Part shown: positions 3,267-25,800 of the stretch, piece by piece | How positions within the stretch are numbered: position 1 is the first letter of the stretch | How the letters are laid out: each line of letters starts with the position of its first letter | DNA from: a virus | Strand: one strand, 5' to 3' | Virus record (IMG/VR): IMGVR_UViG_3300005062_000005 | Location: 1 to 38,110 of that record | DNA length: 38,110 bases | The notes under the pieces: generated by a model | What the model was told of the DNA's origin: nothing | What the model saw: the letters and a program-made list of their open reading frames with translations, nothing else | Database searches by the model: none | Made by a program: the position numbers and the translations under genes

Positions 3267-4352
3267 CTAGGCGTTCGGGTTGCTGCAGGCGGTGTCCACG
3301 GCGACGACGCCGAAGTCCTTCCCGTTGTAGGTGGACTTCTTGACGCCGTAGATGCAGCCGCCGGTGATGGCGAGCTTGTTGCCGCGGTCGTCGGTTTCCT
3401 CGTTCCAGGAATACCGGTTCTTCTTGGTCACGCCGCCGTAGGCGATCATGCCTGCCTGGGCACCAAGGAACAGAGCCCGGGCGGCCTCCACGTTGGCTCC
3501 TGCACCGTAGTCGTCGAAACGGATGACATTCCGGTGTTTGTGCAGGATCACGTCCGCGTATTCGCCGAGCGCGTTCTTGTAGATCTTGTTCTTGTCGCCG
3601 CGCACGCCCGCGGCCTTCTGGATGGCCAGCCAGTCGTTTTCGCTGGACGAGGTGCGGAGCTGATACGCCTGGTATGTGTGCATGAGCAGGACGAACTTTT
3701 TCTCGCCGTCGACCATGAACGGAAGCATCATCGGGTCGCTGGTTTCAGCCAAAGCCACCAGACGTTCAACGAGAACGAGTCCGATGGAGTCCGCAGCCTC
3801 CATGTCGGCAGCGCCGGTCGCGTCACCGCCATAGATGGTGTGCGAAGAATCCGGGGCGGACAAGGTATTGTTGGCGCGGCCTGTCCAGGTGTCCGCTACG
3901 TGGAAGTCGGAGTTGATGCCCCGAGCACCGGCCAGGTACATCATGATCTGCTGGTCCTGGTCCTCGCCGAACCAGATGGCCAGGGCGTCACGGCTCTGCT
4001 TGCGCAGATTGTACGGGACACGCTGCTGGGTCATCTTGCCCTTGGTGCGGGTACCCTTCCGGCGCTGGTCGATGAACAGCGCATCGTTGAAGAAGGTCAG
4101 GGCTTCTTCGGCAGGAGTCCCTTCAATGTCGGCATCACCCTCGGCACCGTCGCCGGAGAGCTTCATGCGCAGGCCCACAGTGATTTTCTCACCGGCGCCC
4201 TTTTCCAGTTCGTTCTGCTGCTTGATGAGCGCGTCGTCGCCGGCGCCAATGAACTTGGCGAAGTACTGATTGATGGCCGCTTCAACGGCCAGGGAAGTGG
4301 ACCATCGTTGGACAGCCAACGGATCATTAAGAGCAAATTCGGTATCAGCCAT
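3267..4352 (-). CDS. Major capsid protein, N4-gp56 family
   Basis: This 361-residue protein starts MADTEFALNDPLAVQRWS. The N-terminal segment is helical (VEAAINQYFAKFIGAGDDALI), followed by KGAGEKITVGLRMKLSGDG and then QQRVPYNLRKQSRDALAIWFGEDQDQQIM. The C-terminal part contains ALFLGAQAGMIAYGG and YSWNEETDDRGNKLAITGGCIYGVKK. This order is characteristic of the N4-gp56 (HK97-fold) major capsid family found in podoviruses. GGAGG lies about 9 bases upstream of the ATG, inside the end of the scaffold gene. It is flanked by scaffold and adaptor genes as expected. The protein forms the icosahedral shell. Confidence 0.9.
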   Translation of the reverse strand: MADTEFALNDPLAVQRWSTSLAVEAAINQYFAKFIGAGDDALIKQQNELEKGAGEKITVGLRMKLSGDGAEGDADIEGTPAEEALTFFNDALFIDQRRKGTRTKGKMTQQRVPYNLRKQSRDALAIWFGEDQDQQIMMYLAGARGINSDFHVADTWTGRANNTLSAPDSSHTIYGGDATGAADMEAADSIGLVLVERLVALAETSDPMMLPFMVDGEKKFVLLMHTYQAYQLRTSSSENDWLAIQKAAGVRGDKNKIYKNALGEYADVILHKHRNVIRFDDYGAGANVEAARALFLGAQAGMIAYGGVTKKNRYSWNEETDDRGNKLAITGGCIYGVKKSTYNGKDFGVVAVDTACSNPNA

Positions 4353-6129: not shown

Positions 6130-8172
6130 TTATATCTGCGGCAGTGCAGGCTGTGGTTGACTCTTTCTCGCTTCCTCGGCCAATTCCTTTCCGACTTTGT
6201 GCCCGGCCAGATAATCCTCGCGCTTCTGGTCGCCAACGGTCTTGTCTGCCTTGGCGGCCTTGTCCGCTATCTCCGCCCTGAGTTTTGCGTTCTCAAGCTG
6301 CTTTGCCTCAAGTCCGAGCAAGACTATGCGATCTTCAATCATCTTCTGCTTCTCTGCCGTTTCTTTTTCGGACTGCATCCTGGCCAGGACTTGTTCCTTG
6401 ATCTCTTCCGGCGTCATATCCTCCTCACCGGGCATCTGCCCCAAGAGCGGGCGCAGGCGCATCAGGAGGGCGTCCTTGTTCGGGAGGTTGGAAAGTTCAA
6501 GGGCGAACGACATGAGGTGCGGAATGATCTCCGGCGGGGACTGCTTCACCCATTCGATGATAAGGTTAAGGCTCTGTTCCCTTGTGGTGTCGGTGGCCGG
6601 AGAATCGGTGATGACAATGTCGTAAATACCCTGCGTGATGTTGTTGGTGATGACCACGCCTCCTATTTCGTCCCGCTTCGGCTGGTTGAGCTCGACGAAC
6701 CTTTCCTGGTTCGTGATCTTGTCAGTGATACGAAGAATTTTCGGCCCCTTCCATTTGTCCTGAATCTCCGCTGACGCCAAGGTGCCAATGCGTTGGTGGC
6801 TCTGCTTGAGGTTGTCGAAGAGTTCCGCCAGAACCGTATTCGCCTGACGCTGCTTGTTTTCCAGAGCCTTGCCGGATTGAACGCTTGAACGATAGCCCAT
6901 GATCTCGTCGTTGGCCCCAGAGACTTGCTGAATCTCGGATTCGGATGCCGTCATCAAATCGGCCTGCCCCTGAGCGAGCATCTGCCCTTCAATGATTTGG
7001 ACTTTGGCCAATCCGCCCTCTTTGAGCTTCACGGCACCATCCATGGAATTTATTTCATCATAGAGAGTCTGAGCATCTTCAACGGCCTCTGCCTCGAATA
7101 AGACACGACGTTTTTGCAACAGGGCCAGGGCCATGGAACGGCGTTTGTTCACCTCTTCGTTTTGACCGCGAATCTGCCGGGGCACGCCGTAGGGGAACTT
7201 GAACCGGTCCACGTAGCCGAGGAACGGCACGTAGGGGTACTGGTCATGTCCGTGTGGGCTGGGCATATCCTGAAGCGGCTGAGCGCCTAGGAAAGTGAGG
7301 ACGCGCATCTTCCGAACCTTGGCCCTGATGATCTCCACGGCGGCCGTAACCATCATGTAGACCTCTTGGTCAGGGCTCTTTGGATCAATCTCGAGGCAAC
7401 GGCCGTCGGGGAAGCGGGCGAACAGACAATCTTCAAGGACCGGATACCACATCTCAACCGGGCGAACGCGCTTGCGGTTGGGGTCAATCCAGTTGCCCAT
7501 TCCCATGACGCGCTTGTACTGCTCGATGTCGTCGGCGTAGTCGCCGTATCCCACGATGTAGTCACTGTCGTTGGAGGACAGACCATCATAGGCCCCCTGG
7601 ATTTCCTTCTCCTTCTCGGGGAACATGGAGATCAAGGCCTCGAGGTCCATCCACCGTTGGAAGAACATGTACCGGCATTCCTCCGGGTCCAGCCACGGGG
7701 AAGCAAAGGGGTCCCACCAAACCTCTTTCCAATCGCGTTGCCTGATCTGAATGGGTTCCTTGCGAGGATCGGGGTTCAAACCGACATGGATCCATCCGAT
7801 ACCGGGGACAACGGCGTCCTTGAACGCCCTGGAAATATGGTGCTGTCCACGGTTTTGGTCCATGACGAACTGGATTGACTCGGTCATGATCTCGGCCATC
7901 TGTCCGTCTTTGGTGGTCCGCGCTTTTGCGATAATGTTCTGGCGGCCGGCTGCCTGGGTCCCGATAATCAGGTTTACGGCCGGGAAAATCTTGTTGATGG
8001 TCAGCGGGTCTATGCCTTTCTCTATCGCATCTAACCTGTCTGCCTGAGTCCACTGGTAGCCGTCGTACATCTCGCAGTCGCGCCACGAATCGGACCGCCA
8101 GTCACGGGCGGCCATGCGTGCCTCTTCGACAAATCCTGCGGCCATATGTGGAGTCATCTTCTTCAACGGCAT
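6130..8172 (-). CDS. Portal protein (P22-like)
   Basis: This is a 680-residue portal protein. The N-terminal region includes DWRSDSWRDCEMYDGYQWTQ and LTINKIFPAVNLIIGTQAAGRQ. A wing region follows (DWKEVWWDPFASPWLDPEECR, a typical portal segment). The C-terminal third is a long charged helix (about residues 575-670, with repeated Glu/Lys), as in the P22-type barrel. It starts at ATG 8172 with GAGGAG upstream and follows the terminase directly. It would form the dodecameric ring at one capsid vertex through which DNA is packaged and ejected. Length and motifs agree with the P22-like portal family. Confidence 0.9.
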   Translation of the reverse strand: MPLKKMTPHMAAGFVEEARMAARDWRSDSWRDCEMYDGYQWTQADRLDAIEKGIDPLTINKIFPAVNLIIGTQAAGRQNIIAKARTTKDGQMAEIMTESIQFVMDQNRGQHHISRAFKDAVVPGIGWIHVGLNPDPRKEPIQIRQRDWKEVWWDPFASPWLDPEECRYMFFQRWMDLEALISMFPEKEKEIQGAYDGLSSNDSDYIVGYGDYADDIEQYKRVMGMGNWIDPNRKRVRPVEMWYPVLEDCLFARFPDGRCLEIDPKSPDQEVYMMVTAAVEIIRAKVRKMRVLTFLGAQPLQDMPSPHGHDQYPYVPFLGYVDRFKFPYGVPRQIRGQNEEVNKRRSMALALLQKRRVLFEAEAVEDAQTLYDEINSMDGAVKLKEGGLAKVQIIEGQMLAQGQADLMTASESEIQQVSGANDEIMGYRSSVQSGKALENKQRQANTVLAELFDNLKQSHQRIGTLASAEIQDKWKGPKILRITDKITNQERFVELNQPKRDEIGGVVITNNITQGIYDIVITDSPATDTTREQSLNLIIEWVKQSPPEIIPHLMSFALELSNLPNKDALLMRLRPLLGQMPGEEDMTPEEIKEQVLARMQSEKETAEKQKMIEDRIVLLGLEAKQLENAKLRAEIADKAAKADKTVGDQKREDYLAGHKVGKELAEEARKSQPQPALPQI

Positions 8173-8175
8173 GGA

Positions 8176-9717
8176 CTATCTCCTCTTTGGGCGCCAGCCC
8201 GTCTTACCCTCGGACGGTGCCGCGTATCCCATTGCGTACTGCCGAAAAGCCGCCTCTGGATGCGAGGCCCAATCATGGACCGGCGCATTCATCCAGCATC
8301 CATTGTTGTCGTCCCAACGTCTCCGGTAGTTCTCAAGCCCTTTGATTCCCTCGTCGCAATTCTCTGCGTCGAAGTAGCAAACGGGAAGAACGTTTCTGAC
8401 CGCCTGGATGCCGCTGGCGATGTCGGCCACTCGAGGGACAATGTATGTGTCATGCCCCGGCAACAGCGACCGAAAGGTATCGATGAGTGACTTTGGGTTT
8501 TCCTGGCTACCCATCTCTCTCTTGGCCATGTCATGTGGAAAGAAGTGAATGCCGAAGGTGTAGCCCGTTTCCTTCAGGTAGTTGACGTAGAACCCAAGAC
8601 CACGATCCGAGAATGCGAAATACCGGATGAAGACTTGCTTCCCGGCTACGTCCTGATGAAACCAAATGGAGGTGTGGTCGGATATGCCCAGATCCCAAAA
8701 CGTATTGACCGGGTATCGCGGATCATAGGGGAAGGCCCCCAGACGTTTTTGCTTGCGTACTTGAATGAGCTCGGTCCGGTAATAGGCGCCCTGGACAGCA
8801 ATTTCAAAAGCTTCGTCCGGTGTGCTCGGGAACTCCTGCTTCATGTCGTCGCCCTGAGTCTCGAGCTTTTTGACATACCATGCTTTTTGCCCGGGAGTGA
8901 GATTGATCCCGTGCTTGAACTCCAACTCATCAAAATAATCTTTGTTCTCGGTAGAGAGAATCACGCCAGTCGGATCGATGGTATAACTAGGGTCCTGCCA
9001 CCAAGCGAAGAAGAAAAATTTGTAGTCGAGCTTTGTCAGTCTCGCCCCGCTGGCCTGTAGTTTCCTTGCAGTCTCGCAGTAATCCCAGAAGTACCCACTA
9101 CGCCCTTCAGCCGTGGACTCAATGAAGACATGACAACCTGCAGCCACCGCATTGAGGGCGCCGGTGACGATCTCCTTGGCCTTCTTTGGGTACTTGGCGC
9201 ATATCTTGCCGAACTCGGAGATGTGAAGGAACTGAAGCGTTCCGGACCGGAAGGACGTTGACACCCGGATGGAAGAACCGTTGGAGAACTTGAGCATGCC
9301 GGCCTTGTCCGTCTCGGCGGTGATAGCTTCCTTCACAATATCGGGCAGGCGCTGGTAGGCGAAGTCAACCTTGTCGTCAAAGAATGAGTTCGCATCTTCC
9401 CGGTTGTGCGCGATGATGCCAGCGCGGACGTTGCTATTGAACAGGCATGCGTCCAAAAACAGGATACAGATAAGGGTGGTGAAGCCGAGTTGGCGGGCCT
9501 TGAGGATAAGATTCAGATACCAGAGCAGCGGCAATATAGTCCGCTGGGCGTAGTTCATCTGGAACTTCACCTCGCGGCCATACTTGTCGAGGATCCAATA
9601 GAGGTTATTGAGGCGCCATACACGGTTCCCCCAATTCTCTAAGATCTCTTCCCGGGACAATTCCCGGGGCTGCTTCTGCTGGCTAGTTTTCTTCAACCAG
9701 CGTGGCGGTCTTCCCAT
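8176..9717 (-). CDS. Terminase large subunit (packaging ATPase/nuclease)
   Basis: This is a 513-residue terminase large subunit. A deviant Walker A is visible at about residues 73-81 (KARQLGFTT). The Walker B-like LQFLHISEFGK at 161-171 carries the likely catalytic Glu168. A nuclease-domain aspartate lies in FWDLGISDHTS near residue 341, with further acidic residues in the C-terminal RNase H-like half (YFDAENCDEGIKG). The enzyme translocates DNA into the procapsid through the portal and cuts it. The 5' end overlaps the small subunit gene by 35 bases, and the stop is 3 bases before the portal ATG. Confidence 0.92.
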   Translation of the reverse strand: MGRPPRWLKKTSQQKQPRELSREEILENWGNRVWRLNNLYWILDKYGREVKFQMNYAQRTILPLLWYLNLILKARQLGFTTLICILFLDACLFNSNVRAGIIAHNREDANSFFDDKVDFAYQRLPDIVKEAITAETDKAGMLKFSNGSSIRVSTSFRSGTLQFLHISEFGKICAKYPKKAKEIVTGALNAVAAGCHVFIESTAEGRSGYFWDYCETARKLQASGARLTKLDYKFFFFAWWQDPSYTIDPTGVILSTENKDYFDELEFKHGINLTPGQKAWYVKKLETQGDDMKQEFPSTPDEAFEIAVQGAYYRTELIQVRKQKRLGAFPYDPRYPVNTFWDLGISDHTSIWFHQDVAGKQVFIRYFAFSDRGLGFYVNYLKETGYTFGIHFFPHDMAKREMGSQENPKSLIDTFRSLLPGHDTYIVPRVADIASGIQAVRNVLPVCYFDAENCDEGIKGLENYRRRWDDNNGCWMNAPVHDWASHPEAAFRQYAMGYAAPSEGKTGWRPKRR

Positions 9718-10213
9718 CTATCTCGTCCATGATGTTTCGCATGACATCAAGCTCATGCTTATGATGGACCATTCCTGAATGGTTGTGGTCCACCTTGTCT
9801 TTGAACATGCCCTTGTGCTTGCCCATGAGCTCGTTGCCCCTGAGGGCGCTGCGTGCATCAAAGGTGAAGGCCGGGCACAAAATCCCATCTGCATTTTCGA
9901 CAAAGACCATTTGTCCGTTCCTGTCGGTCACGGGGATGGCCTGCATACAGCGTTCGGTGATTTCCTTTATGTTTCTCAGAACATAGTCCTGCGTAATCTC
10001 GGTGCGTTCACTTCGGTCATCCATCGCCTTCTTGATGGCTGCCTTGATTCGCTCGTCTTTCAAAAGGCGGTTTGCCTGTGAATAGGCTGTCTTCTCCGAG
10101 TATCCAGCACGAATTGCGGCCTGATTGCCGTTCAGGTCGATGATGTACTCCTGAACAAAGCGTGCCTGCTTCGCGTTGAGTGGAGTAGTGGACTTCGCGC
10201 TCTTCTTGGGCAC
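9683..10213 (-). CDS. Terminase small subunit (Terminase_2 type)
   Basis: This is a 176-residue terminase small subunit. The N-terminus, LNAKQARFVQEYIIDLNGNQAAIRAGYSEKTAYSQANRLL, is the classic Terminase_2 helix-turn-helix that recognises the phage packaging site. A central helical oligomerisation region and an acidic C-terminus follow. The start is GTG at 10213, directly after the TAG of the upstream gene and with AGGAGG upstream. It overlaps the large subunit by 35 bases. It would recruit viral DNA to the large subunit and portal. Confidence 0.9.
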   Translation of the reverse strand: MPKKSAKSTTPLNAKQARFVQEYIIDLNGNQAAIRAGYSEKTAYSQANRLLKDERIKAAIKKAMDDRSERTEITQDYVLRNIKEITERCMQAIPVTDRNGQMVFVENADGILCPAFTFDARSALRGNELMGKHKGMFKDKVDHNHSGMVHHKHELDVMRNIMDEIDGKTATLVEEN

Positions 10214-10600
10214 CTACTCCGCCTCCTGAGCAGCATGCAGCCGACGTAAGGTCCGCCCCTTGAGTGCGCCCATGGCGGCCATGATGTGAGCCAGGGCCTC
10301 GTCGTTCTCCGCGCACGGGAACTGTCCCCTCTGAAAGCACTTGAGCCGGTCCATGACGATGGCCAGCAGCGCCTCGTTGGTGGTCCCGTTGATGCCGCGC
10401 AGGTCGGGGGATCCTGTCTGAAATTTGATGAACTGCACCGGCCTGGCCGGGAGTCTGTCCGTGTCGAACTGGCAGATACGGTAGAGGCTGTACGCCCCGC
10501 CCGGGCCCGCCTGGCCCATGGACTGCACGCGCTCGACGGGAAGCGGGCTCTCCGCAACAACGTGGTCGGTGATGTCTCTGATTTTTTGGCCTATGGGCAT
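10214..10600 (-). CDS. Tad1/Acb2-like hairpin-domain protein (candidate immune-signal sponge)
   Basis: This protein has 128 residues. ATG 10600 is chosen because GGGAG lies 9 bases upstream and the preceding gene ends 5 bases earlier; an ATG 11 codons further up lacks a binding site. The C-terminal half contains GINGTTNEALLAIVMDRLK followed by CFQRGQFPCAENDEAL. This matches the 'GVNG-x-TNEALL-x-I-RL-x-FQ-G-F-CREN-AL' pattern I remember for the Acb2/Tad1 hairpin family. Characterised members bind cyclic oligonucleotides or cyclic ADP-ribose signals and block CBASS or Thoeris immunity. The usual C-terminal 'VEG' is absent, so ligand binding is uncertain. The family resemblance is moderately sure; the anti-defence role is inference. 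Confidence 0.6.
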   Translation of the reverse strand: MPIGQKIRDITDHVVAESPLPVERVQSMGQAGPGGAYSLYRICQFDTDRLPARPVQFIKFQTGSPDLRGINGTTNEALLAIVMDRLKCFQRGQFPCAENDEALAHIMAAMGALKGRTLRRLHAAQEAE

Positions 10601-10605
10601 GCTGT

Positions 10606-10890
10606 TCAACTCCCGAAAAATTTGAATATCCACGACACAGCCCCACCACCAACAACAGCCCCGATTGCAGACAACAAAAGAATTTGAGCTCGCAACTCCT
10701 CCAGCTTCTTGAGCCGGTTGTCATGCTCTTCCTGCTTTGTCTTCATGTCCTGCATCGTGCTCATCCGCGCCTCGCATCGCTCCGAAAGCATCGCTTCGAT
10801 TCGGGCCAGGGACGACTGGACAACCGACCTCTCGTCTCTCAACCCGTTGATGGCGTCCCAGAGGTTGCGGTGCTCTTCTTCGTTGTTCAC
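10606..10890 (-). CDS. XhlA-like coiled-coil membrane protein of the lysis cassette
   Basis: A 94-residue protein. The first ~65 residues are a charged coiled coil (NEEEHRNLWDAINGLRDE up to HDNRLKKLEELRAQ). A single C-terminal membrane helix follows (ILLLSAIGAVVGGGAVSWIF) and the protein ends FKFFGS. This layout resembles haemolysin XhlA-type proteins that assist holin function. The start codon overlaps the stop of the Rz1-like gene by 4 bases. It is the last lysis gene before the Tad1/Acb2-like gene. A lysis accessory role is likely; it could also be an unrelated tail-anchored protein. Confidence 0.65.
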   Translation of the reverse strand: MNNEEEHRNLWDAINGLRDERSVVQSSLARIEAMLSERCEARMSTMQDMKTKQEEHDNRLKKLEELRAQILLLSAIGAVVGGGAVSWIFKFFGS

Positions 10891-11162
10891 TTGCCACCGT
10901 CCGCTTGCAGGCTACCCTTGATTGCCACCTTATCCGCATTGCACCGGCCCAGAGCGTCCCGGTAGTCCAGGATGCACTGGACCAAGTCACCATTTGTCTC
11001 AGCCTTGCTGCAATCCGGTCCCGGCGTCTGCTCCATCAGGTGTTCCGGCGGAACCACGCGGACAACCTTCGTCACCGTGACCATCTCAGGCCGCCTACTG
11101 GAGCAGGCCGCGAACAGCATCAGGCAGAGGAGTATCAGCCCAATCGCGAGTTTCCGGCTCAT
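10887..11162 (-). CDS. Outer-membrane spanin lipoprotein (Rz1-like)
   Basis: This 91-residue protein has a lipoprotein signal (KLAIGLILLCLMLFAAC) and a lipobox ending at Cys20. Mature residues are proline-bearing (RVVPPEHLMEQTPGPDC), with further cysteines (C50, C63 and C74 by rough count), as in Rz1-type o-spanins. Its first 68 bases lie in another frame inside the end of the Rz-like gene (11095-11162), the classic overlapping spanin arrangement. It would anchor in the outer membrane and, with the inner spanin, fuse the membranes at the end of lysis. This is strong evidence for a Gram-negative host. Confidence 0.85.
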   Translation of the reverse strand: MSRKLAIGLILLCLMLFAACSSRRPEMVTVTKVVRVVPPEHLMEQTPGPDCSKAETNGDLVQCILDYRDALGRCNADKVAIKGSLQADGGK

Positions 11163-11496
11163 TTCTCAACGCCTCCTGCCATTTGCGCCGCACCGCATCG
11201 CGTTCGGCTACGATTACCTTGATTGCCCGGTCACGGGCGGCCAGGGCTTTGTCCTTTGCCTCTGAAATTTGTTCGAGTTCGGCCAGGGCCTCGCGGTTGG
11301 CTTCATAGGCCGTGGTCATGGCGGCCAAGTCCATCTCGGCCAGGGTTAGGTCTGCGCGGAGTTCGGCCCTGGCCCAGAGCAGCCACAATATAACGATGGC
11401 CACGGCCACCAAACCGACACCCAACACCACCCATTTGAGGAGCGAGGCCTTGCCCGCAAACAGGCCCACGGCCTTGGCTATCAGCGTGGAAAACAT
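11095..11496 (-). CDS. Inner-membrane spanin (Rz-like)
   Basis: This 133-residue protein starts at ATG 11496, with GGGAG 5 bases upstream; the frame is open further but without a sensible start. A membrane helix spans about residues 20-41 (LKWVVLGVGLVAVAIVILWL). A long periplasmic coiled coil follows (RADLTLAEMDLAAM to LEQISEAKDKALAARDRAIK), then a C-terminal segment (WADTPLPDAVRGLL) typical of i-spanins. It overlaps the transglycosylase by 16 bases and contains the start of Rz1. The pair completes lysis after the cell wall is cut. Confidence 0.85.
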   Translation of the reverse strand: MFSTLIAKAVGLFAGKASLLKWVVLGVGLVAVAIVILWLLWARAELRADLTLAEMDLAAMTTAYEANREALAELEQISEAKDKALAARDRAIKVIVAERDAVRRKWQEALRNEPETRDWADTPLPDAVRGLLQ

Positions 11497-12071
11497 GCGA
11501 GCTCCCTGTGCCAGCGATGGATACGCCGATTGTAGGTGATGGTTTCCTCTGCATGATGCCCGGTGACCAACGGCAGGGCCTCGATGATGGCAGCGTAACG
11601 GTTTGCCCCGCCCGCCGCCCGCTGCGCCTTGAGCAGGTTTCCCATGCCCGCGTTGTAACTGGCCCGGGCCAAGTCCATGCGGTCCATTTCCGGGCGCGGG
11701 GCCGACCATCCATTGCGCAGTTTGCGCATGTAGTAGGCCGCGGCCATGATGGAGTGCCGCACGGAATGCGGCGATACTCGGCCAAAGCCGAGTTGGCCGG
11801 ACACCTCGTCCCAGGTGCGTGGCATGAACTGCCCGAGCCCGGCTGCCCCGACTGGCGACACTGCCGAAGGATCAAGCTGGGACTCCTGATACAGCTGGGC
11901 CTTGAGCCACAGCCAATGACCCTCAGGATATGGCGTCCACCACCGTTCGGCGGCCTTGCTGATTTCGCTGTCGTAGCGGTCGGTATAGCGCCCAGCCAGG
12001 GCCTCAAGAGGCCAAGACGAGAGCGCAACCAATCCACACAGCAGACTGATAAATAGCCAGCGCAAGGGCAT
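11481..12071 (-). CDS. Exported lytic transglycosylase (phage endolysin)
   Basis: 196 residues from ATG 12071. A signal peptide is seen at residues 1-26 (LRWLFISLLCGLVALSSW, then an LEALA-G cleavage-like site). An SLT domain follows: AQLYQESQLDPSAVSPVGAAG with probable catalytic Glu63, GLGQFMPRTW, then ARASYNAGMGNLLK. It would cleave peptidoglycan between MurNAc and GlcNAc. AAGGAG touches the ATG directly, leaving no spacer, so TTG at 12065 (6 bases downstream of AAGGAG) may be the real start and would keep the signal peptide. The 5' end overlaps the holin-like gene. The cleavable signal suggests Sec export rather than holin-gated release. Confidence 0.88.
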   Translation of the reverse strand: MPLRWLFISLLCGLVALSSWPLEALAGRYTDRYDSEISKAAERWWTPYPEGHWLWLKAQLYQESQLDPSAVSPVGAAGLGQFMPRTWDEVSGQLGFGRVSPHSVRHSIMAAAYYMRKLRNGWSAPRPEMDRMDLARASYNAGMGNLLKAQRAAGGANRYAAIIEALPLVTGHHAEETITYNRRIHRWHRELACFPR

Positions 12072-12219
12072 CTCCTTCGATTTGCCGAATGGTGTTGGAC
12101 CAGGGACGGCCGTTAAATCTTTCGAGCATGCGCAAGCTGGCCCACAGCAAGAACAGGGCAATCAGCTTGTACACGTATTCGAGCACCAGGTTGATGGCCG
12201 CGGACTCAAACATTCCCAT
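12004..12219 (-). CDS. Holin-like small membrane protein
   Basis: 71 residues with two likely hydrophobic helices (about residues 8-27, INLVLEYVYKLIALFLLWAS, and 52-70, ALAIYQSAVWIGCALVLAS). A polar loop lies between them (RMLERFNGRPWSNTIRQIEG). ATG 12219 has GGAGGGAG just upstream. It precedes and overlaps the transglycosylase, the normal place for a holin. No known holin signature is recognised, so the call rests on topology and position. It would permeabilise the inner membrane at a set time. Confidence 0.65.
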   Translation of the reverse strand: MGMFESAAINLVLEYVYKLIALFLLWASLRMLERFNGRPWSNTIRQIEGDALALAIYQSAVWIGCALVLAS

Positions 12220-12379
12220 GACTCCCTCCGTACAAGACCCAGGCTATAGCCCGCTCCCACCACGACGAAATGCGCCGGGCTACCCGGTCAGGGCACCCGA
12301 CGCATCGCAGTCGGCAGTAGACATGCAGGGGATTGAACCGGTGTTGCATGCCATCGCGGATGGTGGAGATGATTGCCAT
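12206..12379 (-). CDS. 57-residue first gene of the late/lysis operon
   Basis: ATG 12379 is preferred because GAAGGGA lies upstream; the frame extends to 12469 without a good site. The protein begins MAIISTIRDGMQHRFNPLHV. It is basic with three Cys (YCRLRCVGC) and ends with an aromatic, hydrophobic segment (SSWWERAIAWVLYGG). From memory, similar 'IRDxxQHRxNPLHVYCRLR' mini-proteins occur at the start of phage lysis cassettes. Its stop lies just inside the next start region. The function is unknown; membrane association or a regulatory role is possible. Confidence 0.55.
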   Translation of the reverse strand: MAIISTIRDGMQHRFNPLHVYCRLRCVGCPDRVARRISSWWERAIAWVLYGGSHGNV

Positions 12380-12496
12380 GAGCCTGTCCCTTCGTATTGC
12401 GTGGTGGTCCGGTCGAGCCTCCTGGTGTCGTACTGCCGAGCCGTGGCCTGTGCAGCCGGTCAGGGCCAAAACACGGACCCTTTTCTAGTGGCTGTA

Positions 12497-12562
12497 ATTC
12501 TACCACGGGATTTGGGGATCTGTACGAGAATGCACGGTGGATGCACGGTAGATGCACGGTAG
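12497..12562 (-). promoter_or_regulatory. Putative activator-dependent late promoter with three 11-bp repeats
   Basis: On the minus strand a TAGAAT -10-like box (12502-12497) has only a poor -35 (GTACAG at 12525-12520, 17-base spacer). Directly upstream are three near-identical 11-bp units, ATGCACGGT(G/A)G on the plus strand, at 12530-12540, 12541-12551 and 12552-12562, plus a degenerate fourth. One unit per helical turn on one face fits activator binding beside the -35. It sits between the early terminator (12599-12616) and the first lysis gene (12379), in a 240-base gap without genes. The repeats are directly visible; the promoter role is inference. Confidence 0.5.
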
Positions 12563-12593
12563 ATGTACTCTTGACAGGGTGTTTTGAGGGCGC

Positions 12594-12616
12594 AAAAAAG
12601 CCCCCTTTCGGGGGCT
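12594..12616 (-). terminator. Intrinsic terminator of the early operon
   Basis: The minus strand reads AGCCCCC, GAAA loop, GGGGGCT, then a run of T: stem 12610-12616 with 12599-12605, T-run at 12594-12599. It lies just after the stop of the 74-residue HTH gene (12621). It would end leftward early transcription before the late promoter. Confidence 0.85.
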
Positions 12617-12620
12617 GTCG

Positions 12621-12845
12621 CTACGACTTCGATTTCACTAGGTTGCCGGGGCATCTCGCGGGGCCTGACTCCGGTTGCGCATACAACCAATCGGACAGCT
12701 GCCAGGCTTCGGCGTATGCGCCTTTGTCGGTCATGCGGATCGGCGCGCCCCGTTCTTTCCACGACTTAGCCTTGCGTGGGTCAACATCGTAGTACTTGGC
12801 TATGCCTGCCCACGTCCAGAGCGGAACGGGGATGCGTCCGGTCAT
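12621..12845 (-). CDS. Small winged-helix/HTH DNA-binding-like protein
   Basis: 74 residues. Residues 10-55 (TWAGIAKYYDVDPRKAKSW, KERGAPIRM, then EAWQLSDWL) look like the MerR/Nu1/excisionase-type winged helix used by small phage DNA-binding proteins. The ATG overlaps the stop of the preceding membrane gene (ATGA). It is the last early gene before the terminator, directly facing the presumed late promoter. A role as late-gene activator, excisionase or packaging factor is possible, and its position makes it a natural candidate for the repeats at 12530-12562. The fold call is by eye. Confidence 0.6.
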   Translation of the reverse strand: MTGRIPVPLWTWAGIAKYYDVDPRKAKSWKERGAPIRMTDKGAYAEAWQLSDWLYAQPESGPARCPGNLVKSKS

Positions 12846-13072
12846 TCGGCGTCCTCCTCTTCCGGTGGGTATTCCGGTGAAACAGGTGGGGATGGCGGAG
12901 GATTGAACCAGCGCCTATGCATCGTGCTCAACTGAAATTGTGCGATACAAAAGCAAACAGCCTGCACAATGCAAAAAACTATCATCGTTCCAAACAGCAG
13001 GTACTTACGCCATGGTGTTACCTCAAACTGTGAGACGATGAAGAATACGGCGTCCGCATACCCTTCCATCAT
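12842..13072 (-). CDS. Small membrane protein with proline-rich acidic tail
   Basis: 76 residues. A membrane helix or tight helical pair lies at about residues 25-46 (YLLFGTMIVFCIVQAVCFCIA), preceded by a mildly hydrophobic segment. The tail is PPPSPPVSPEYPPEEEDAE, likely disordered. The start (ATG ATG) has AAGGAG 8 bases upstream and overlaps the stop of the 404-residue zinc protein by 4 bases. The protein is unrecognised. Superinfection exclusion or a host membrane effect is imaginable from position in an early operon, with no direct support. Confidence 0.55.
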   Translation of the reverse strand: MMEGYADAVFFIVSQFEVTPWRKYLLFGTMIVFCIVQAVCFCIAQFQLSTMHRRWFNPPPSPPVSPEYPPEEEDAE

Positions 13073-14283
13073 GCCGCCCGCTCCTTGAAGTCCACGACCA
13101 CGATCCCCGGTGAAGCCCCGCCATCGCCGGTCACCTTGTACCGCCCCGTTTCGGTCACCCCCAGGTCGCGGAGGAACCCGGTTGCCGAAATAATCCTGGT
13201 GTTGCCGTCCTGGACCCTGAGCAAGACGCTGTCCCCGTCCGTGGGTTCGTCGAGCGGGACCAGGGCCAGGACCTTGGCTCCGGCGTCCGAGTAGACGTCC
13301 ACGTACTTGGCCTTGGTCAGCCCGAATTTGAGAACGGTCACGGCATTGAGCGCGAGATCCACGCCCTTGGCGTTTTTACGCACCGCCGCAAACGGCTGAT
13401 TGGTGGAGGTGGTGCGGTGGGTGATATGCCGAGTCAGGGTCAGACCGCCGAACTGGACGGACCGGTCTTGGCCGGATGCGATGTCCAGGCCCCCGAAAAC
13501 AGGCTTGTCCGAACCAGACGCAGGGTAAATGTCGAGAGGGACTGGCCCCGTAGGGCCGCCTAGCATCGTAGTATGCGAGCATGGCCCGGGGCACGCGCAC
13601 TTGTCGCACGCCTCGGCATATTCCTGTTTCTCGAGCGGGTTGCCTTCCCTGGCGTCGTCAACCTCTTGTTTGCCCATTACCCAGGCCAAGCGGATAGTGT
13701 GGGAGACATACGCCGGAGGCTCCACCTTCCAAGTCACGGTCCCGTCGCCGTTCACGACCAACCGCCCGTCCTTGATATACCGGTAGCAACCGCTGCACAA
13801 ACCACCCGCGACAATCTTCTTGCTATCCCGGCCGCACCCAATGCAGACGACCTTCTCCGGTTCGACTGTCTCGTGGTACTCCTCGCTCTTGGGCTCGTCG
13901 GCCAGGGCGTGCTCGGGCATCGTGATCAGCCACACCCATTCGTCGCCCTCGCGGATGAGCTCGCCGGACGCGCGATATTTGGAGCACTCCCCGCACAGCC
14001 CGCCACTCAGAGAGTACGGCCCACGTCCGCAACATTCGCATTTTCCACGCTTCGCCACCGTCTTGGCCTCCTTCGGCAGCCGCTCGGCCACCGTCTTGAT
14101 GAGCGCGCCGTACTCGGTGCACCGCTCGCACCGGTTGATTTTGTGGGGCTGGTTCCCGGTGGTGCTCCACCCGCCGACCCTGGCCCTGTTCGCCTTGCAC
14201 TGCTCGGGCGTGATCCGGGCCCGGATATGCGGACACTCGAACGTGTGGCGTTCCTGCCACGCCTGGATTTCAGCATCGGTCAC
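13069..14283 (-). CDS. Multi-zinc-finger early protein, unknown function
   Basis: 404 residues from GTG 14283, chosen because AGGAGG lies upstream and the codon overlaps the preceding stop (GTGA). The N-terminal half holds several cysteine modules: FECPHIR...EQCKANR...CERC, then KCECCGRGPYS..LCGECSKY, VCIGCGRDSKK..LCSGCYRY, and CDKCACPGPCSH. Each probably binds zinc. The second and third have the same 'CxxCGR-x(n)-GGLCxxCxxY' pattern, suggesting internal duplication. The C-terminal half is beta-rich (VLKFGLTKAKYVDVYSD, ATGFLRDLGVTETGRYKV). No catalytic motif is recognised. Nucleic-acid or protein binding is likely. It follows the MazG-like gene in the early operon. Confidence 0.7.
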   Translation of the reverse strand: MTDAEIQAWQERHTFECPHIRARITPEQCKANRARVGGWSTTGNQPHKINRCERCTEYGALIKTVAERLPKEAKTVAKRGKCECCGRGPYSLSGGLCGECSKYRASGELIREGDEWVWLITMPEHALADEPKSEEYHETVEPEKVVCIGCGRDSKKIVAGGLCSGCYRYIKDGRLVVNGDGTVTWKVEPPAYVSHTIRLAWVMGKQEVDDAREGNPLEKQEYAEACDKCACPGPCSHTTMLGGPTGPVPLDIYPASGSDKPVFGGLDIASGQDRSVQFGGLTLTRHITHRTTSTNQPFAAVRKNAKGVDLALNAVTVLKFGLTKAKYVDVYSDAGAKVLALVPLDEPTDGDSVLLRVQDGNTRIISATGFLRDLGVTETGRYKVTGDGGASPGIVVVDFKERAA

Positions 14284-19174: not shown

Positions 19175-19211
19175 CAGACTGCATACGAAAACTTTGATAT
19201 TGGTGGTAATC

Positions 19212-19949
19212 ATGGGATTTCACGATGATTTCGTTAATGGCCTCAAAGGGCTGGCAGGAGAAGACAAGCGGTTCAAGAATGTCGCTCGTCTAGCTGACGC
19301 CTGCGATGTGGCACCGATTCAGATCAGTCGGATTATCAACCGCGACCGAGAAACATACCTCAAGGCTATAGGCAAAATCATTGACGGCGTGGGAGCTCGT
19401 CTTGTTTTCGATTCTGAGGAGCACGATCCGACCAGAGAAGTATGCTTCATTGACGCAAAGGCAGTGAACGCGCCGGATGCGGCCAAGATAGCCGACGAGG
19501 ACTACATTGCCGTGCCCCTGGCCGAAGAAGTCGTTGCCGCCGGACCGGGAATCATCCCCCAAGACTCGATACGCGGATGGATTCTTGTGTGGAGGAACCA
19601 AAAGGCCGTCCAGTTCACCACCAACCTGGTTGCGGTCGAGATCGGCAGGAACGAAAGGTCCATGGTCCCGACGTTCTGGCCGGAAGACATTCTGCTTGTA
19701 GATAGATCGAACAGAAACCCAGAGACGGCCGGAAAAACCTGGCTGGTCTGCGACCCAGACGGCGGGTGTGCCATCAAGCGCGTGAGCTCAAGAAAGGTGA
19801 AGGGTGACGTGGAATTGACGTTCTACTCTGACAACGCAAAGGAATTTCCGCCCACGACCCATAGGCTCAATCGGGATTTTGACGGCGACATCAATCGGGC
19901 CATAGCTGGCCGAGTGGTCTGGGCTTGGTCGGACGTACGAGAAAAGTGA
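19212..19949 (+). CDS. CI-like repressor with S24 (LexA-type) autoprotease domain
   Basis: 245 residues from ATG 19212 (weak GGTGG upstream; TTG 19194 is less likely). The N-terminal HTH is at about residues 24-48 (VARLADACDVAPIQISRIIN). The C-terminal S24 peptidase has a possible Ala110-Gly111 self-cleavage site, catalytic Ser150 in ERSMVPTFWPEDILL and Lys189 in GCAIKRV. Such repressors keep a prophage silent and self-cleave with RecA after DNA damage. It diverges from cro over two operators and ends at an intrinsic terminator. It implies a temperate lifestyle. Confidence 0.88.
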   Translation: MGFHDDFVNGLKGLAGEDKRFKNVARLADACDVAPIQISRIINRDRETYLKAIGKIIDGVGARLVFDSEEHDPTREVCFIDAKAVNAPDAAKIADEDYIAVPLAEEVVAAGPGIIPQDSIRGWILVWRNQKAVQFTTNLVAVEIGRNERSMVPTFWPEDILLVDRSNRNPETAGKTWLVCDPDGGCAIKRVSSRKVKGDVELTFYSDNAKEFPPTTHRLNRDFDGDINRAIAGRVVWAWSDVREK

Positions 19950-19999: not shown

Positions 20000-20488
20000 C
20001 TACCTCCTGCGCCACTTCCACGGCGGTGTCGGGTTGTCTCCTTGCCATAGGCCAAGACGCTTTGTCTTGGCACCGGCCTCCAACTCTTCCCACTCTCCGC
20101 ACACAGGCAAGCGGCAATACCGCAAATAGACCCAGGCCCACCCTTGCTCAAGAATCATCCGGTTGAGCGTATGCCCGCCTGCGGTTGTCACGATGGCCAC
20201 GGACCGGCCGTAACGGTCCCGGTCAATCTCTTCGACATCCACCACCCTGCCAATCACGGACTTGACGTAGTCGGTCGCGCCCTTGCCGCCGGGCTGCTTC
20301 CGTTCCGGGCAGTCGATGCCATAGAGCCGGACGCGGACGCCTGAGCCGCCGTCAGTCACAACGTTTACCGTGTCGCCATCGACGACGCGGGCGACGGTGC
20401 CCTGCCAGGCGGAGGCTGGAAGGGCAAAGAATAAACACAAAAAAACAACAGATGGTAGCCGCGATAGAGCCCTACGGTAAATAATCAC
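20000..20488 (-). CDS. Exported SNase-like (thermonuclease) nuclease
   Basis: 162 residues. A signal peptide covers residues 1-27 (LPSVVFLCLFFALPASA-W). The SNase core follows: VARVVDGDTVNV, VRLYGIDCPERKQP with the catalytic-type Arg/Asp region, VEEIDRDRYGRSVAIV, and GWAWVYLRYC. Family members are Ca2+-dependent nucleases of single- and double-stranded DNA or RNA. The start is GTG 20488, overlapping the stop of the Sel1-like gene (GTGA), so the two form one unit. It faces the repressor terminator. The signal directs it to the periplasm or outside. In a phage this is probable cargo, perhaps acting on extracellular or incoming DNA. Confidence 0.85.
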   Translation of the reverse strand: MIIYRRALSRLPSVVFLCLFFALPASAWQGTVARVVDGDTVNVVTDGGSGVRVRLYGIDCPERKQPGGKGATDYVKSVIGRVVDVEEIDRDRYGRSVAIVTTAGGHTLNRMILEQGWAWVYLRYCRLPVCGEWEELEAGAKTKRLGLWQGDNPTPPWKWRRR

Positions 20489-21234
20489 TGTGGCCTAACC
20501 GCATAGATGAAAGACACGACAGATGGTCTATAAGCAGATTTGGTCGCCTTGATTGAATCAAATTTCTTTCTTGCTTCATCTCTCATTGATTCGCTGTCCT
20601 GAGAAGAAAGGACGCTTTCGACTTTGTCAGCATCCGAATTGAGCGCACCACGGATACCGTCATTAGGGGACATGGCTATGGCGATCAAGAACCATTTATA
20701 AGCCTCTTTCAAGTCTTTGATGGTCCCTTCGCCGTAAAGGTAAGAGTAGGCAAGCTGAGCGGCACCTATGTAACTCCCTTCATTGGCGCTTGTATTAGAA
20801 ATTTCGAAGGCTTCACGAGGCGTGACGAAGGGAAGCCCTTGTTTGTTAAATACATATATCCACAACAAATCCAACTTGGAAGATGTTGTGCCAGACCGCC
20901 GCAAATACCCTGTTGAGATCCTCAAATCTTTTTCTACGCAGTCGCCATTTGCGTACATGATGCCGAGCATTTCAAAATATTCGCTCTGGTCAAGACGACG
21001 TATTTCGTTGAGCCAAGAAAAAGCCTTTTCACACTCCCCCTTCTTTATATATTCAAGAACAATAAGCGGCTTTGGAAACACATCGTCTTTCCCGTTGGCT
21101 ATAATTGTTGATATGTCTGAAAGATTCGGGAAGTCATTCCCGAATTCAGTCACCATTTGGTCGTAATCCTGGGCCAAGCAAATCGAATTTTGAAAAAGAA
21201 ACAACGTCAAAACAAAAAATAACACTCGCTTCAT
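20485..21234 (-). CDS. Exported Sel1-repeat-like protein (accessory cargo)
   Basis: 249 residues from ATG 21234 (GAGGG upstream; ATG 21291 is a less likely start). A signal peptide is visible (VLFFVLTLFLFQNSICLAQ). Short helical repeats of Sel1/TPR type follow: YFEMLGIMYANGDCVEKDLR, and AAQLAYSYLYGEGTIKDLKEAYKWF. Codon use is clearly more AT-rich than in neighbouring phage genes, suggesting recent acquisition. It is coupled to the SNase gene. Sel1 repeats bind proteins. A secreted partner or modulator of the nuclease is possible but not shown. Confidence 0.7.
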   Translation of the reverse strand: MKRVLFFVLTLFLFQNSICLAQDYDQMVTEFGNDFPNLSDISTIIANGKDDVFPKPLIVLEYIKKGECEKAFSWLNEIRRLDQSEYFEMLGIMYANGDCVEKDLRISTGYLRRSGTTSSKLDLLWIYVFNKQGLPFVTPREAFEISNTSANEGSYIGAAQLAYSYLYGEGTIKDLKEAYKWFLIAIAMSPNDGIRGALNSDADKVESVLSSQDSESMRDEARKKFDSIKATKSAYRPSVVSFIYAVRPQ

Positions 21235-21315
21235 CCCACTACCCTCACTATTCTTGTCACAACGCACGCATATTTCTCCACAGTTGTTCATGCCCTACTC
21301 ACGGCACAATATTTT

Positions 21316-21604: not shown

Positions 21605-22057
21605 ATGGCTCACAGGAATGTAGTAGAAACCAGTGTAATCGGCAAGTTGTTTGGGCGCAAGCCCACCACGCAAGCGCAACCTGAAACCAAGGTTGCCTAT
21701 TGTATCCCCCGCAACGTCCTGCATTTCGCCCTGTTCGATGAGGATGGTCCGTTCTCCGATCTTCCGATTACGGAAAAATACGCCGTAGCCGAAGAGATCG
21801 AAGACCGGCTCCATTCCATCGGCTGGCGCGTCGAGGCCAGTGCGCAGGCCCTGAATCTCAAAGACAATGAGTACCACCGCCGTCTGGCTCGTATTTCCAA
21901 GCGCGGCGGCATTTGGGCCAAACAGATCAGGTCGATGATCGACTTGGCCTATGATTATTTGGTCTACAAGGACCGTACGGGGAGCACTCTTCCCTATCCG
22001 TGGCCCTTCCGTGAAATATCGGTTTCCGACCTCGCTGAGGAGGTGAAGCATGTCTAG
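21605..22057 (+). CDS. Phage protein of the antirepressor operon, unknown function
   Basis: 150 residues with a strong AGGAGG upstream of ATG 21605. It contains VIGKLFGRKPTTQ, VAYCIPRNVLHFALFDEDG, then a helical region (RLHSIGWRVEASAQALNLKDN, YHRRLARISKRGG) and a C-terminus rich in aromatic residues (LPYPWPFREISVSDL). No known motif is recognised. Its last 8 bases overlap the antirepressor start, so the two are co-translated, which suggests joint function in immunity control or a host takeover role. Confidence 0.65.
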   Translation: MAHRNVVETSVIGKLFGRKPTTQAQPETKVAYCIPRNVLHFALFDEDGPFSDLPITEKYAVAEEIEDRLHSIGWRVEASAQALNLKDNEYHRRLARISKRGGIWAKQIRSMIDLAYDYLVYKDRTGSTLPYPWPFREISVSDLAEEVKHV

Positions 22058-22802
22058 CATCCTCCCCTTCCAGTTTGAGACGGCAGAGGTCAGGGTCATC
22101 CGTGACGAACAGGGCGAACCATGGTTCGTAGCCAAGGATGTGGCTGAGGTGTTGGGGTATGCAAAGCCTCGGAACGCCATTGCTACTCACTGCAAGGGGG
22201 CCTCGATTCAGGGCCTCCCTTCAAATGGCGGCGTCCAGGAAATGACCATCATCCCCGAGCGCGACGTCTACCGCCTCATCATGCGGTCCAAGCTCCCGAG
22301 CGCCGAGCGGTTCGAGGATTGGGTTGTCGGTGAGGTTCTGCCTTCCGTCCGCAAGCACGGCGGCTACATGACCCCGGAGAAGGTCGAGGAGGCCCTGCTC
22401 AACCCGGACACCATCATCCGGCTGGCGACGGACCTCAAGGCCGAGCGGGAGCAGCGCCAGCGCATCCAGGCCGAACGCGACAGGCTCAAGCCCAAGGCCG
22501 ACACCATGGATGCGCTCATGGCCACCGACACGGCCCTGCCCATCGGCTCGGTGGCCAAGGCCCTGCACAAGGACTTCGGCATAGGCCGCAACCGTCTCTT
22601 CCGCTTCCTGCGGAACCGGGGCCTGCTCATGGCCAACAACGAGCCCAAGCAGGAATACCTGAACCGTGGGTACTTCCGCGTCGTGGAACGGCGTTTCGAG
22701 GTCAACGGGGAAATGCGGGTGGGAACGCAGACCCTCGTCTACCAGAAAGGCGTCAACTACATCGCCCGTCTCTTGCGAGAGGGAACGGACGCAGCCGCTT
22801 AG
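22050..22802 (+). CDS. ant: Antirepressor (BRO-N plus KilAC/ANT domains)
   Basis: 250 residues. The BRO-N domain is at residues 1-105: VRVIRDEQGEPWFVAKDVAEV LGYAKPRNAI and FEDWVVGEVLPSVRKHGGY. A coiled linker follows (LKAEREQRQRIQAERDRLK). The KilAC/ANT domain is at about 150-245: IGSVAKALHKDFGIGRNRL FRFLRNRGLL, then YFRVVERRFEVNG and GVNYIARLL. Such proteins bind and inactivate CI-type repressors and so induce or protect lytic growth. It closes the rightward Arc-like operon and ends at a strong hairpin. Confidence 0.88.
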   Translation: MSSILPFQFETAEVRVIRDEQGEPWFVAKDVAEVLGYAKPRNAIATHCKGASIQGLPSNGGVQEMTIIPERDVYRLIMRSKLPSAERFEDWVVGEVLPSVRKHGGYMTPEKVEEALLNPDTIIRLATDLKAEREQRQRIQAERDRLKPKADTMDALMATDTALPIGSVAKALHKDFGIGRNRLFRFLRNRGLLMANNEPKQEYLNRGYFRVVERRFEVNGEMRVGTQTLVYQKGVNYIARLLREGTDAAA

Positions 22803-22836: not shown

Positions 22837-25800
22837 AATACGCCTCCATCTGCGCCCGTAGCCGGAGCGCATCCCTTGGGCTGAGGCCGCCGGTCTTCAA
22901 CCTCGATTTGATTCGGGAGGTCAGGTCCTTCCGGGTAATGACCATCCACAACTTCTTGTCAGCCTTGGCCTGGCGGTTCCACTCTCGCAGTTCCTTGAGT
23001 GTATCCTGAACCGTCTCGCTGTCGCCATCCCGATATGCCCGGACAATACGATTCGCCAATTCACCGGCTTTCTCGCTCCTGGCGGCTTTGGAGACTTCCC
23101 GAGCCCGGTACTTGTCATACGACTTGCGGCTTGAAGTGGGCTGGAAGCCAGCCATCTTTCCAAGGGCCTCTGCCTTGGTCAGTTTGCGCGGACCGCGCTG
23201 GCCAGGCTCATTGATCGGCTTGCCGGACATGGAGTACTGACCACGCTTCCACAACCGGTATCCCGCCATGCCGTTTTTGATGATCGTGGGCGCGGCTTCT
23301 TCAAACGCACGCCACTCATTCCCGGACTTGAGTGCCTTCATGACCATGGTCGGCTTCCTGATGAACATATCGTAGGGGATGCCCAGGATATCCCCGAGGT
23401 TGTCGGATATGGTTTCTTCCAGCGTTGCGCCAGGCTCCACACGAGAGAGAACAGGAGTTTCCAGGCCGACAGACCCGCCAAGACTAAACCCGGCCCCGGC
23501 CGGGAGCCCGTAACTCGCCATGTCGCGCAGCATGTCACCTTCGGGAAGCTGCTTGCGGATTTCCTCGGTCCAGTCGTCGTCATCCCCGGTGATCCACTGG
23601 AAGAGGTGCATCAGGGTGGCATAGAATGGCAGTGCGGTGAAACCGCCAATGGCCATGGTGCCGGCCATGGATTTGGCGAATGCTTTACGCCCCTCCGCGC
23701 CCTGCGTGGTCAGCATCCAGTTCCACAGGGACAGGATGTTGTGGGAGAAGGTCCGAAACGTGTAGGCGGGATTCATGCCGCGCCCAAGGGTAGAGTTTCT
23801 GAGCGGCTGCGGGAGGTTTGTCTTGCCGTAGACGAAGTGGGCATCGCGCACCACATTCTCGGCGTATGCCTTAGCCTGGTCGTAATCGAAGGTTTCGCCC
23901 CGGCGTTTCCCGTACTCCTTGAGGACGCTCTTGTTCGTGATGTGCCCGTCTCGTGCTGCCCTGTAGGCGGCCAGGGCCAGGGACCCCCGGTTGAAACGCT
24001 CGGCCATGGCCATAGGCCACCCTGCTGCGCGAAGCACCTTGTTGCTGATCGAAGCCAGGGACACTCCCTGGACCTTCCCGCGGATCTCATTCAGAAAGCC
24101 TTCGGTTATGACATCCTCTCGATAGAGCTCGTCCATGAGCCGGGACTCATCTTCGGCCAAGGAGTTGTGGCCGGTCACGCTGTCCGTGAGTTTGTCCATG
24201 GCCGCTTTGACGTACTTGGTCCCACCGCCACGGACATCCATGCCCAGACGAGGCACCCCCGCTATGACATTCTGCGTCAGGTTCAATGCGGCAGTCTTCA
24301 GGTTGAACCCAAGATACCACAGGAAAGCCATGGCCTTGACGTTGCCCACGGCACGGTCGATTTTGTCCGCGTTTCTCAGCATGTTCTGCACATATTTGGT
24401 CGCGTATGTGTATTCCCGCGGGTGCCGCTTCGCATTGATGTCGCCGAGGAGGGAGGTAAAGTCACGGCTTGCAGCCATCTTCGTCAGCCACCCGGAGAGC
24501 CCCGCTTTGTAATCGTAGACGATGCCCTGGATATCATCTAGCTCATGCCCCGGTATCCCCTTCCGCGCAATGGTCGCCCCGGACCAGCCTCGGGCTTTCA
24601 TGGTGTCGGCCACGGCGCTGGACAGCGAGGCACGGATCTCGTTGGCTTGGGCCTTGTCCTCGAGACTATCGGCCGCGGCCTTGATGATCTGCTCCATGGC
24701 GTTGGTGTCGATGCCGAACTCGTAAACGTCATCCGGCAGGCGCTCATTCAGACCGGTTGACCATTCCAGGTCGGCCCCATACTCAGCCTTGAGCGCGGGC
24801 AATTTTCCCTCCGCCTTACGTTTGGCCATCTTCTTGGATGGAGAGTCGAAGTGTTCCCGATAAACGACGCCTAGCTTGTTTTCGGCCAAATGCTTCCGGG
24901 CGATGGATTCTTCCTTGAATGCGTCCGAGACTTCAACGCCGGCGGCATTGTAGACAACCCATTTGCCCTCTGCATTTTGACCGATGTGATTATCTCCGAC
25001 GGCCTGAATGTAGTATGCCCCGTACCTCTTGTGGGGAAAGTAGTTGTGGACGTGATTGATGTTCGTCCTGAACTCTTTGATGGTGTCGTCGTCGATCTCC
25101 GCCATCTGGCGCATGGCGTCGTAGGCCCGGAGGAAATCCCGGTCCAGGGACTCCCGCAAGGCCACAAGAGCACGCTGAGCCTTCGGGGGAAGCCCCTGCC
25201 CTGCCGTCCACTTTTCGAACGCATCATAATACGCCGGATTCATCTCCAACACCGGTCGCCCATTTTCAAACAGGGGCCGTCCGTCGTCGAGCTCCGCCTG
25301 GATGAATTTGTCCCCATCCAAGCCAGGCAATTTTTCCCCGTCGATTTTCCAGATGATGTCTCTGAGCTCGGCGTGTTCCGCCGGGGTCATGTCGGTGAAA
25401 AAGTCCTCCACCTCTTCAAGCGATTCCTTGAGTACGGATGCCCGCTCGTCCATTCTGGAGAGTTGGCGCCGGTAGATGGCGTCGAACGCCGGGAACCGCT
25501 TGGCGATCCAGTGCGGGAGGCTCGCCACCTCTTGAAGGACGCTCAGGTCCTTGGAGTTGATGCGGTCGATCAGTCCAGACTTTCCCGAGGCGGCAGCTTC
25601 GGCAATCTGGCTTGGGCGGTTGACGAGGGCACGGGCTACGTCTTGGGCCCCGTGGGGCAGGTTGCGCCCCCCCTGCTCGGCGGCGATTTGGGAAAGGATG
25701 TCCTTCGCTGACACATTGGACGTGGAAGGCCCAGAGGTGCCCCGTTTGGAGAACCTGGTCCTACTGAAGGCCGGCTTGACAACATCGGTAGGAAATTTTA

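Follow-up and report, generated by a model that had tools for sequence, protein, structure and literature searches.

A small gene at positions 10214-10600 of an IMG/VR virus record, analysed here over its whole 38,110 bases (the window), raises the question of whether a sponge-like anti-defence protein of the Tad1/Acb2 type is encoded between the lysis and the packaging genes of a phage, and of which immune signal such a protein would take up. The open reading frame lies on the minus strand and encodes 128 residues, with its ATG at 10600 and its TAG at 10214-10216. A Shine-Dalgarno-like GGGAG 9 nt ahead of the ATG overlaps the end of the upstream gene (TGA, 10606-10608), and the GTG of terS (10213) directly abuts the TAG. 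The initial annotation had placed a reading frame here and had quoted two motifs from its product, GINGTTNEALLAIVMDRLK (residues 69-87) and FQRGQFPCAEN (residues 89-99), all of which are present as described. The Tad1 family is already known; the altered C-terminal tail of this protein and its late-operon place are the parts worth a second look.

Family membership and predicted fold

Used as a single phmmer query against PDB sequences, the window protein matched CbTad1 (E 9e-11, window residues 23-117), CmTad1 (E 1.2e-8), and the jumbo-phage protein gp184 (E 1.7e-5), and it also matched phrog_2428, a family whose function is not known (E 9.7e-21). With a family profile that combined the window protein with 77 relatives at ~32-46% identity (78 sequences in all), the PDB matches became 1.4e-29 for CbTad1, 1e-26 for CmTad1, and 3.5e-25 for gp184, and nothing followed until E 0.38. 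Relatives are numerous: they came from 128 phage records, many matching over the hairpin only, from 191 IMG/VR loci found by one conserved pattern, and from 12 genome contigs and 5 plasmid records; a DNA-similarity search found no closely related phage. The window protein itself had no match in Pfam, NCBIfam, or PADLOC. For the Pfam model Acb2_Tad1_hairpin (PF24729), whose curated cut-off was not reached, matches were obtained to 43 of the 78 aligned sequences (E up to 0.1), and we attribute the miss to the limited sensitivity of so short a model.

The Tad1 fold has been defined as an N-terminal antiparallel β-sheet followed by two long C-terminal helices (PMC12043709). Both elements were found in an AlphaFold model of a single chain, predicted with the 78-sequence alignment (pLDDT 89.1, pTM 0.77), which places four strands in a β-sheet domain at residues 6-60 and then a two-helix hairpin at residues 75-91 and 97-127. 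A Foldseek search of the PDB with this model returned CbTad1 or CmTad1 structures as all of its best 20 matches (7uaw, E 3.5e-8, TM 0.76; CmTad1, E 7e-7), and the next match beyond Tad1 was unrelated at E 0.7. In a viral structure library the best match was an "Acb2/Tad1 hairpin domain-containing protein". The structural comparison, on which the initial annotation had let its family call stand or fall, thus gave a clear Tad1 match, and chance similarity was rejected on the E-values and on the gap between the Tad1 matches and the next fold match.

That call had covered Acb2 and Tad1 together and can now be narrowed to Tad1, since the N-terminal domain aligns with that of Tad1 relatives and the PDB matches were confined to Tad1 and gp184. 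Acb2 membership was rejected because Acb2 is short and all-helical, four strands are predicted ahead of the hairpin here, and Acb2 was absent from both the profile and the fold matches in the PDB. By the same alignment with 77 relatives, we rejected the "unusual N-terminal extension" that had been ascribed to this protein: residues 7-60 align with the N-terminal β part of Tad1 relatives, with IRDITDHVV of the window protein opposite their MRELTDHIV and GPGGAY opposite the GPGGAY of CbTad1, and only ~6 residues are left as extra. Only in comparison with Acb2 is this part an extension. Taken together, the profile and fold evidence leaves us in very little doubt that the 128-aa protein is a member, albeit a divergent one, of the Tad1 family.

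The ligand pocket and the missing tail

The residues of CbTad1 that contact gcADPR we take to be R57, F82, N92, and R109, a numbering that fits the CbTad1 chain. Three of these have counterparts in the window protein (F89, N99, and R116 for F82, N92, and R109, respectively) at alignment positions with 94-100% conservation across the family. No residue corresponds clearly to R57, whose position is not conserved in the family alignment. The consensus residue H38 is replaced by S. At the C-terminus, the initial annotation was right that the usual final VEG is missing, the protein ending in LRRLHAAQEAE; its HAAQEAE stands where the family consensus has RGVEGT, CbTad1 has RNVLGT, and CmTad1 has KGIEGT, so that the protein lacks the G-x-E/L-G-T tail that CbTad1 and CmTad1 share with most relatives. 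This tail is an element of the pocket and no requirement for homology. Since it lines the gcADPR pocket in Tad1 (PMC12043709), its absence is the single feature that could change ligand choice, and natural loss of the tail provides a test case for its role in that choice.

About 9 of the 78 sequences in the family alignment are tail-less, and 6 of these 9 have also lost the consensus residues D29 and H38, compared with 2 of the 69 tailed sequences. A first quick tree, in which the trait columns were included, grouped the window protein with a Vibrio group. We considered joint loss of the tail, D29, and H38 as the mark of a subfamily and rejected it, because, once the trait columns were masked, the tree supported no clade and covariation was not significant; the masked-tree analysis used a stricter tail pattern and therefore a longer tail-less list than the 9 of 78 above, and its independent pairs were too few for co-loss to be tested. 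The co-occurrence may serve as a lead only.

Proteins of the Tad1 family sequester gcADPR and cyclic nucleotides and leave them intact (PMC12043709, PMC10022894), with cyclic trinucleotides bound at a separate site (PMC12043709). On the strength of its homology and its predicted fold, the window protein probably works as such a nucleotide-signal sponge, whereas we regard the chances that it binds gcADPR in particular as evenly balanced. It would assemble as a Tad1-type oligomer, in which three dimers form a hexamer, and would bind TIR-made cyclic ADP-ribose isomers, CBASS cyclic nucleotides, or both, leaving them uncut. Since the C-terminal tail is missing, its ligand preference may differ from that of known members, and the loss probably changes affinity or ligand range with binding retained.

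A further step would be a Tad1-fold sponge whose gcADPR pocket has been repurposed through tail loss, so that it takes only or mainly CBASS-type cyclic nucleotides or another TIR-made signal. The replaced tail, the loss of D29 and H38 in 6 of the 9 tail-less sequences, and the separate trinucleotide site of Tad1 are all consistent with such a change, but F89, N99, and R116 are kept and the co-occurrence lost its support when descent was considered, and we therefore think this rather unlikely.

Late-operon setting and timing

All genes identified around tad1 share its minus-strand orientation. Listed in the order of transcription, they are an SLT-domain endolysin (11481..12161; PF01464, E 5.5e-15), an Rz-like inner spanin (11095..11541; phrog_89, E 2e-15), an Rz1-like outer spanin (10887..11162; PF23793 LysC, E 4.9e-14; phrog_456, E 1.1e-20), a 94-aa coiled-coil protein that has a hydrophobic stretch at its C-terminus (10606..10890) and whose gene stops 5 bases short of the tad1 ATG, tad1 itself, the terminase small subunit terS (9683..10213; PF03592, E 2.2e-26; phrog_51, E 1e-38), the large subunit terL (8176..9717; phrog_2, E 9.4e-29; 48-50% identity to annotated terminases), the portal protein (6130..8172; phrog_156, E 1.1e-122), and, further down, the major head protein (3267..4352; phrog_334, E 2.4e-97). 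The 94-aa protein, which gave no significant family match in Pfam or PHROGs, is possibly holin-like. Genes for a CI-like repressor (19194-19946) and an Ant antirepressor (22050-22799), both on the plus strand, indicate a temperate phage, and the Rz/Rz1 spanins suggest that its host is probably Gram-negative. Gene order makes it likely that tad1 is transcribed by read-through with the late genes, and a scan of the minus strand from 9500 to 12800, in which no sigma-70-like promoter was found, is a weak pointer in the same direction.

Several other minus-strand genes of the window deserve mention. A 2497-aa protein (22838-30328) combines an inorganic pyrophosphatase-like domain (PF18823) with a C-terminal MuF domain (PF18819), a polyvalent-protein arrangement, and is possibly ejected together with the DNA. 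The gene at 20003-20488 encodes a protein of the staphylococcal-nuclease fold (PF00565) whose start resembles a signal peptide, and the adjoining gene (20488-21291) encodes a protein in which a signal-peptide-like stretch accompanies a Sel1 repeat. A 404-aa open reading frame with several CxxC pairs (13069-14283) has no PHROGs or Pfam match.

The initial annotation had called the late-type operon an odd place for an anti-defence gene. The position is real, but its oddity is not supported: relatives are often found near packaging or structural genes. Terminase was detectable in 21 of the 50 IMG/VR records searched, which are fragments and carry mutually non-independent loci, and in 15 of these 21 tad1 lay within 6 kb of terL compared with 6.1 expected by random placement, a count never reached in 20,000 random-placement simulations. 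Within 2 kb of terL, the same 21 records gave 6 compared with 2.6 expected (p ~0.02). Tad1 genes thus occur near packaging genes unusually often. In one such locus (L023) tad1 is followed 16 bp later by terS and then by terL, which is also the order in the window; another has tad1 between terS and terL (L044), and others have it just before terL (L057) or just after it (L076); L032, L059, L065, L118, and others also count in this pattern. At other loci, tad1 directly adjoins genes for portal, tape measure, head-tail adaptor, or minor head proteins, or genes for DNA polymerase, exonuclease, or methyltransferases, and in annotated Vibrio and Rhizobium phage relatives the gene sits among DNA-metabolism genes. 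As a separate observation, a 316-aa open reading frame in a further locus (L048:5992-6942) has a Tad1-like domain followed by ~190 residues and is a possible Tad1 fusion.

Of 80 loci that carry a related terS, only one has a Tad1 gene nearby, and tad1 therefore looks like an accessory gene at its terS-adjacent place. At that one locus (L118:2695-3048), a CmTad1-like gene lies ~950 bp ahead of a terS that is related to the one in the window, which places another type of Tad1 close to a packaging module resembling this one.

Late expression could have a purpose of its own. The phage major capsid protein switches on staphylococcal and streptococcal Thoeris cyclases (PMC12578639), and a sponge gene placed ahead of the capsid gene would be a sensible arrangement where the capsid protein is the trigger. 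Because tad1 precedes the capsid gene and is read from the same strand, the sponge would be made just before the capsid protein, would be present when that protein raises the Thoeris alarm, and would keep host suicide effectors off during virion production by capturing the signal. Capsid-triggered Thoeris and a late tad1 together yield the testable idea that some phages time the sponge to the alarm and not to the start of infection. The fuller proposal, that a tail-less Tad1 is a functional variant with a pocket altered for a different immune nucleotide and is placed late, just ahead of the signal-triggering capsid, we advance as a long shot.

A sponge made late might instead be packaged with the head contents, injected, and act as the next infection begins. 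An analogy exists in gp184 of phiKZ, an injected virion protein associated with the inner body (PMC10449902), and the gp184 in PDB 8y6v, inferred from its name and from phiKZ-like matches to be the phiKZ protein, matches the family profile over residues 104-226; tad1 also sits with virion genes here. The window protein lacks the ~100 extra N-terminal residues of gp184, however, and no packaging signal is known for it or was seen in it, and we consider virion carriage very unlikely. That the protein is instead a packaging or virion-assembly accessory, with a Tad1 fold and no immune role, is extremely unlikely in our judgement, for although tad1 lies between the lysis genes and terS and the family is frequently near terL, the 1 in 80 related-terS loci implies that packaging can do without it, and homologues also have genes for DNA polymerase, exonuclease, and methyltransferases as neighbours.

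Comparison with known systems

Read as a probable nucleotide-signal sponge, the window protein adds to the family a divergent Tad1, missed by Pfam, NCBIfam, and PADLOC, from a temperate tailed phage. CbTad1, from a Clostridium botulinum prophage (PDB 7uav, 7uaw, 8smd, 8kbe-8kbh), is collinear with it over residues 23-117 at ~31% identity and matches its predicted fold at TM 0.76, with F82, N92, R109, GPGGAY, and FQ.G conserved. In contrast, the RNVLGTNT tail of CbTad1 is missing and its R57 and H29 are not kept, and the window gene lies in the late operon of a phage that has Rz/Rz1 spanins. CmTad1 (PDB 8kbb, 8kbc, 8kbd), solved with cAAA and cAAG, matches the window protein in fold and profile but is only ~24% identical to it and retains its KGIEGT tail. 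The gp184 of jumbo phage shares a Tad1-type domain and differs in its longer N-terminus.

Two further relatives are XLL19160 of Vibrio phage 10N.237.312.C11_PE002A, annotated as Thoeris_anti-defense, and the VPHZ6 homologue, which are 38-40% identical to the window protein over most of its length and tail-less like it, but whose genes lie among genes for DNA metabolism, ahead of an integrase. The anti-CBASS sponge Acb2 resembles the window protein in the region of the helical hairpin motif, and the Pfam Acb2_Tad1_hairpin model covers both, but Acb2 is without the N-terminal β domain (PMC12043709) that the window protein is predicted to have.
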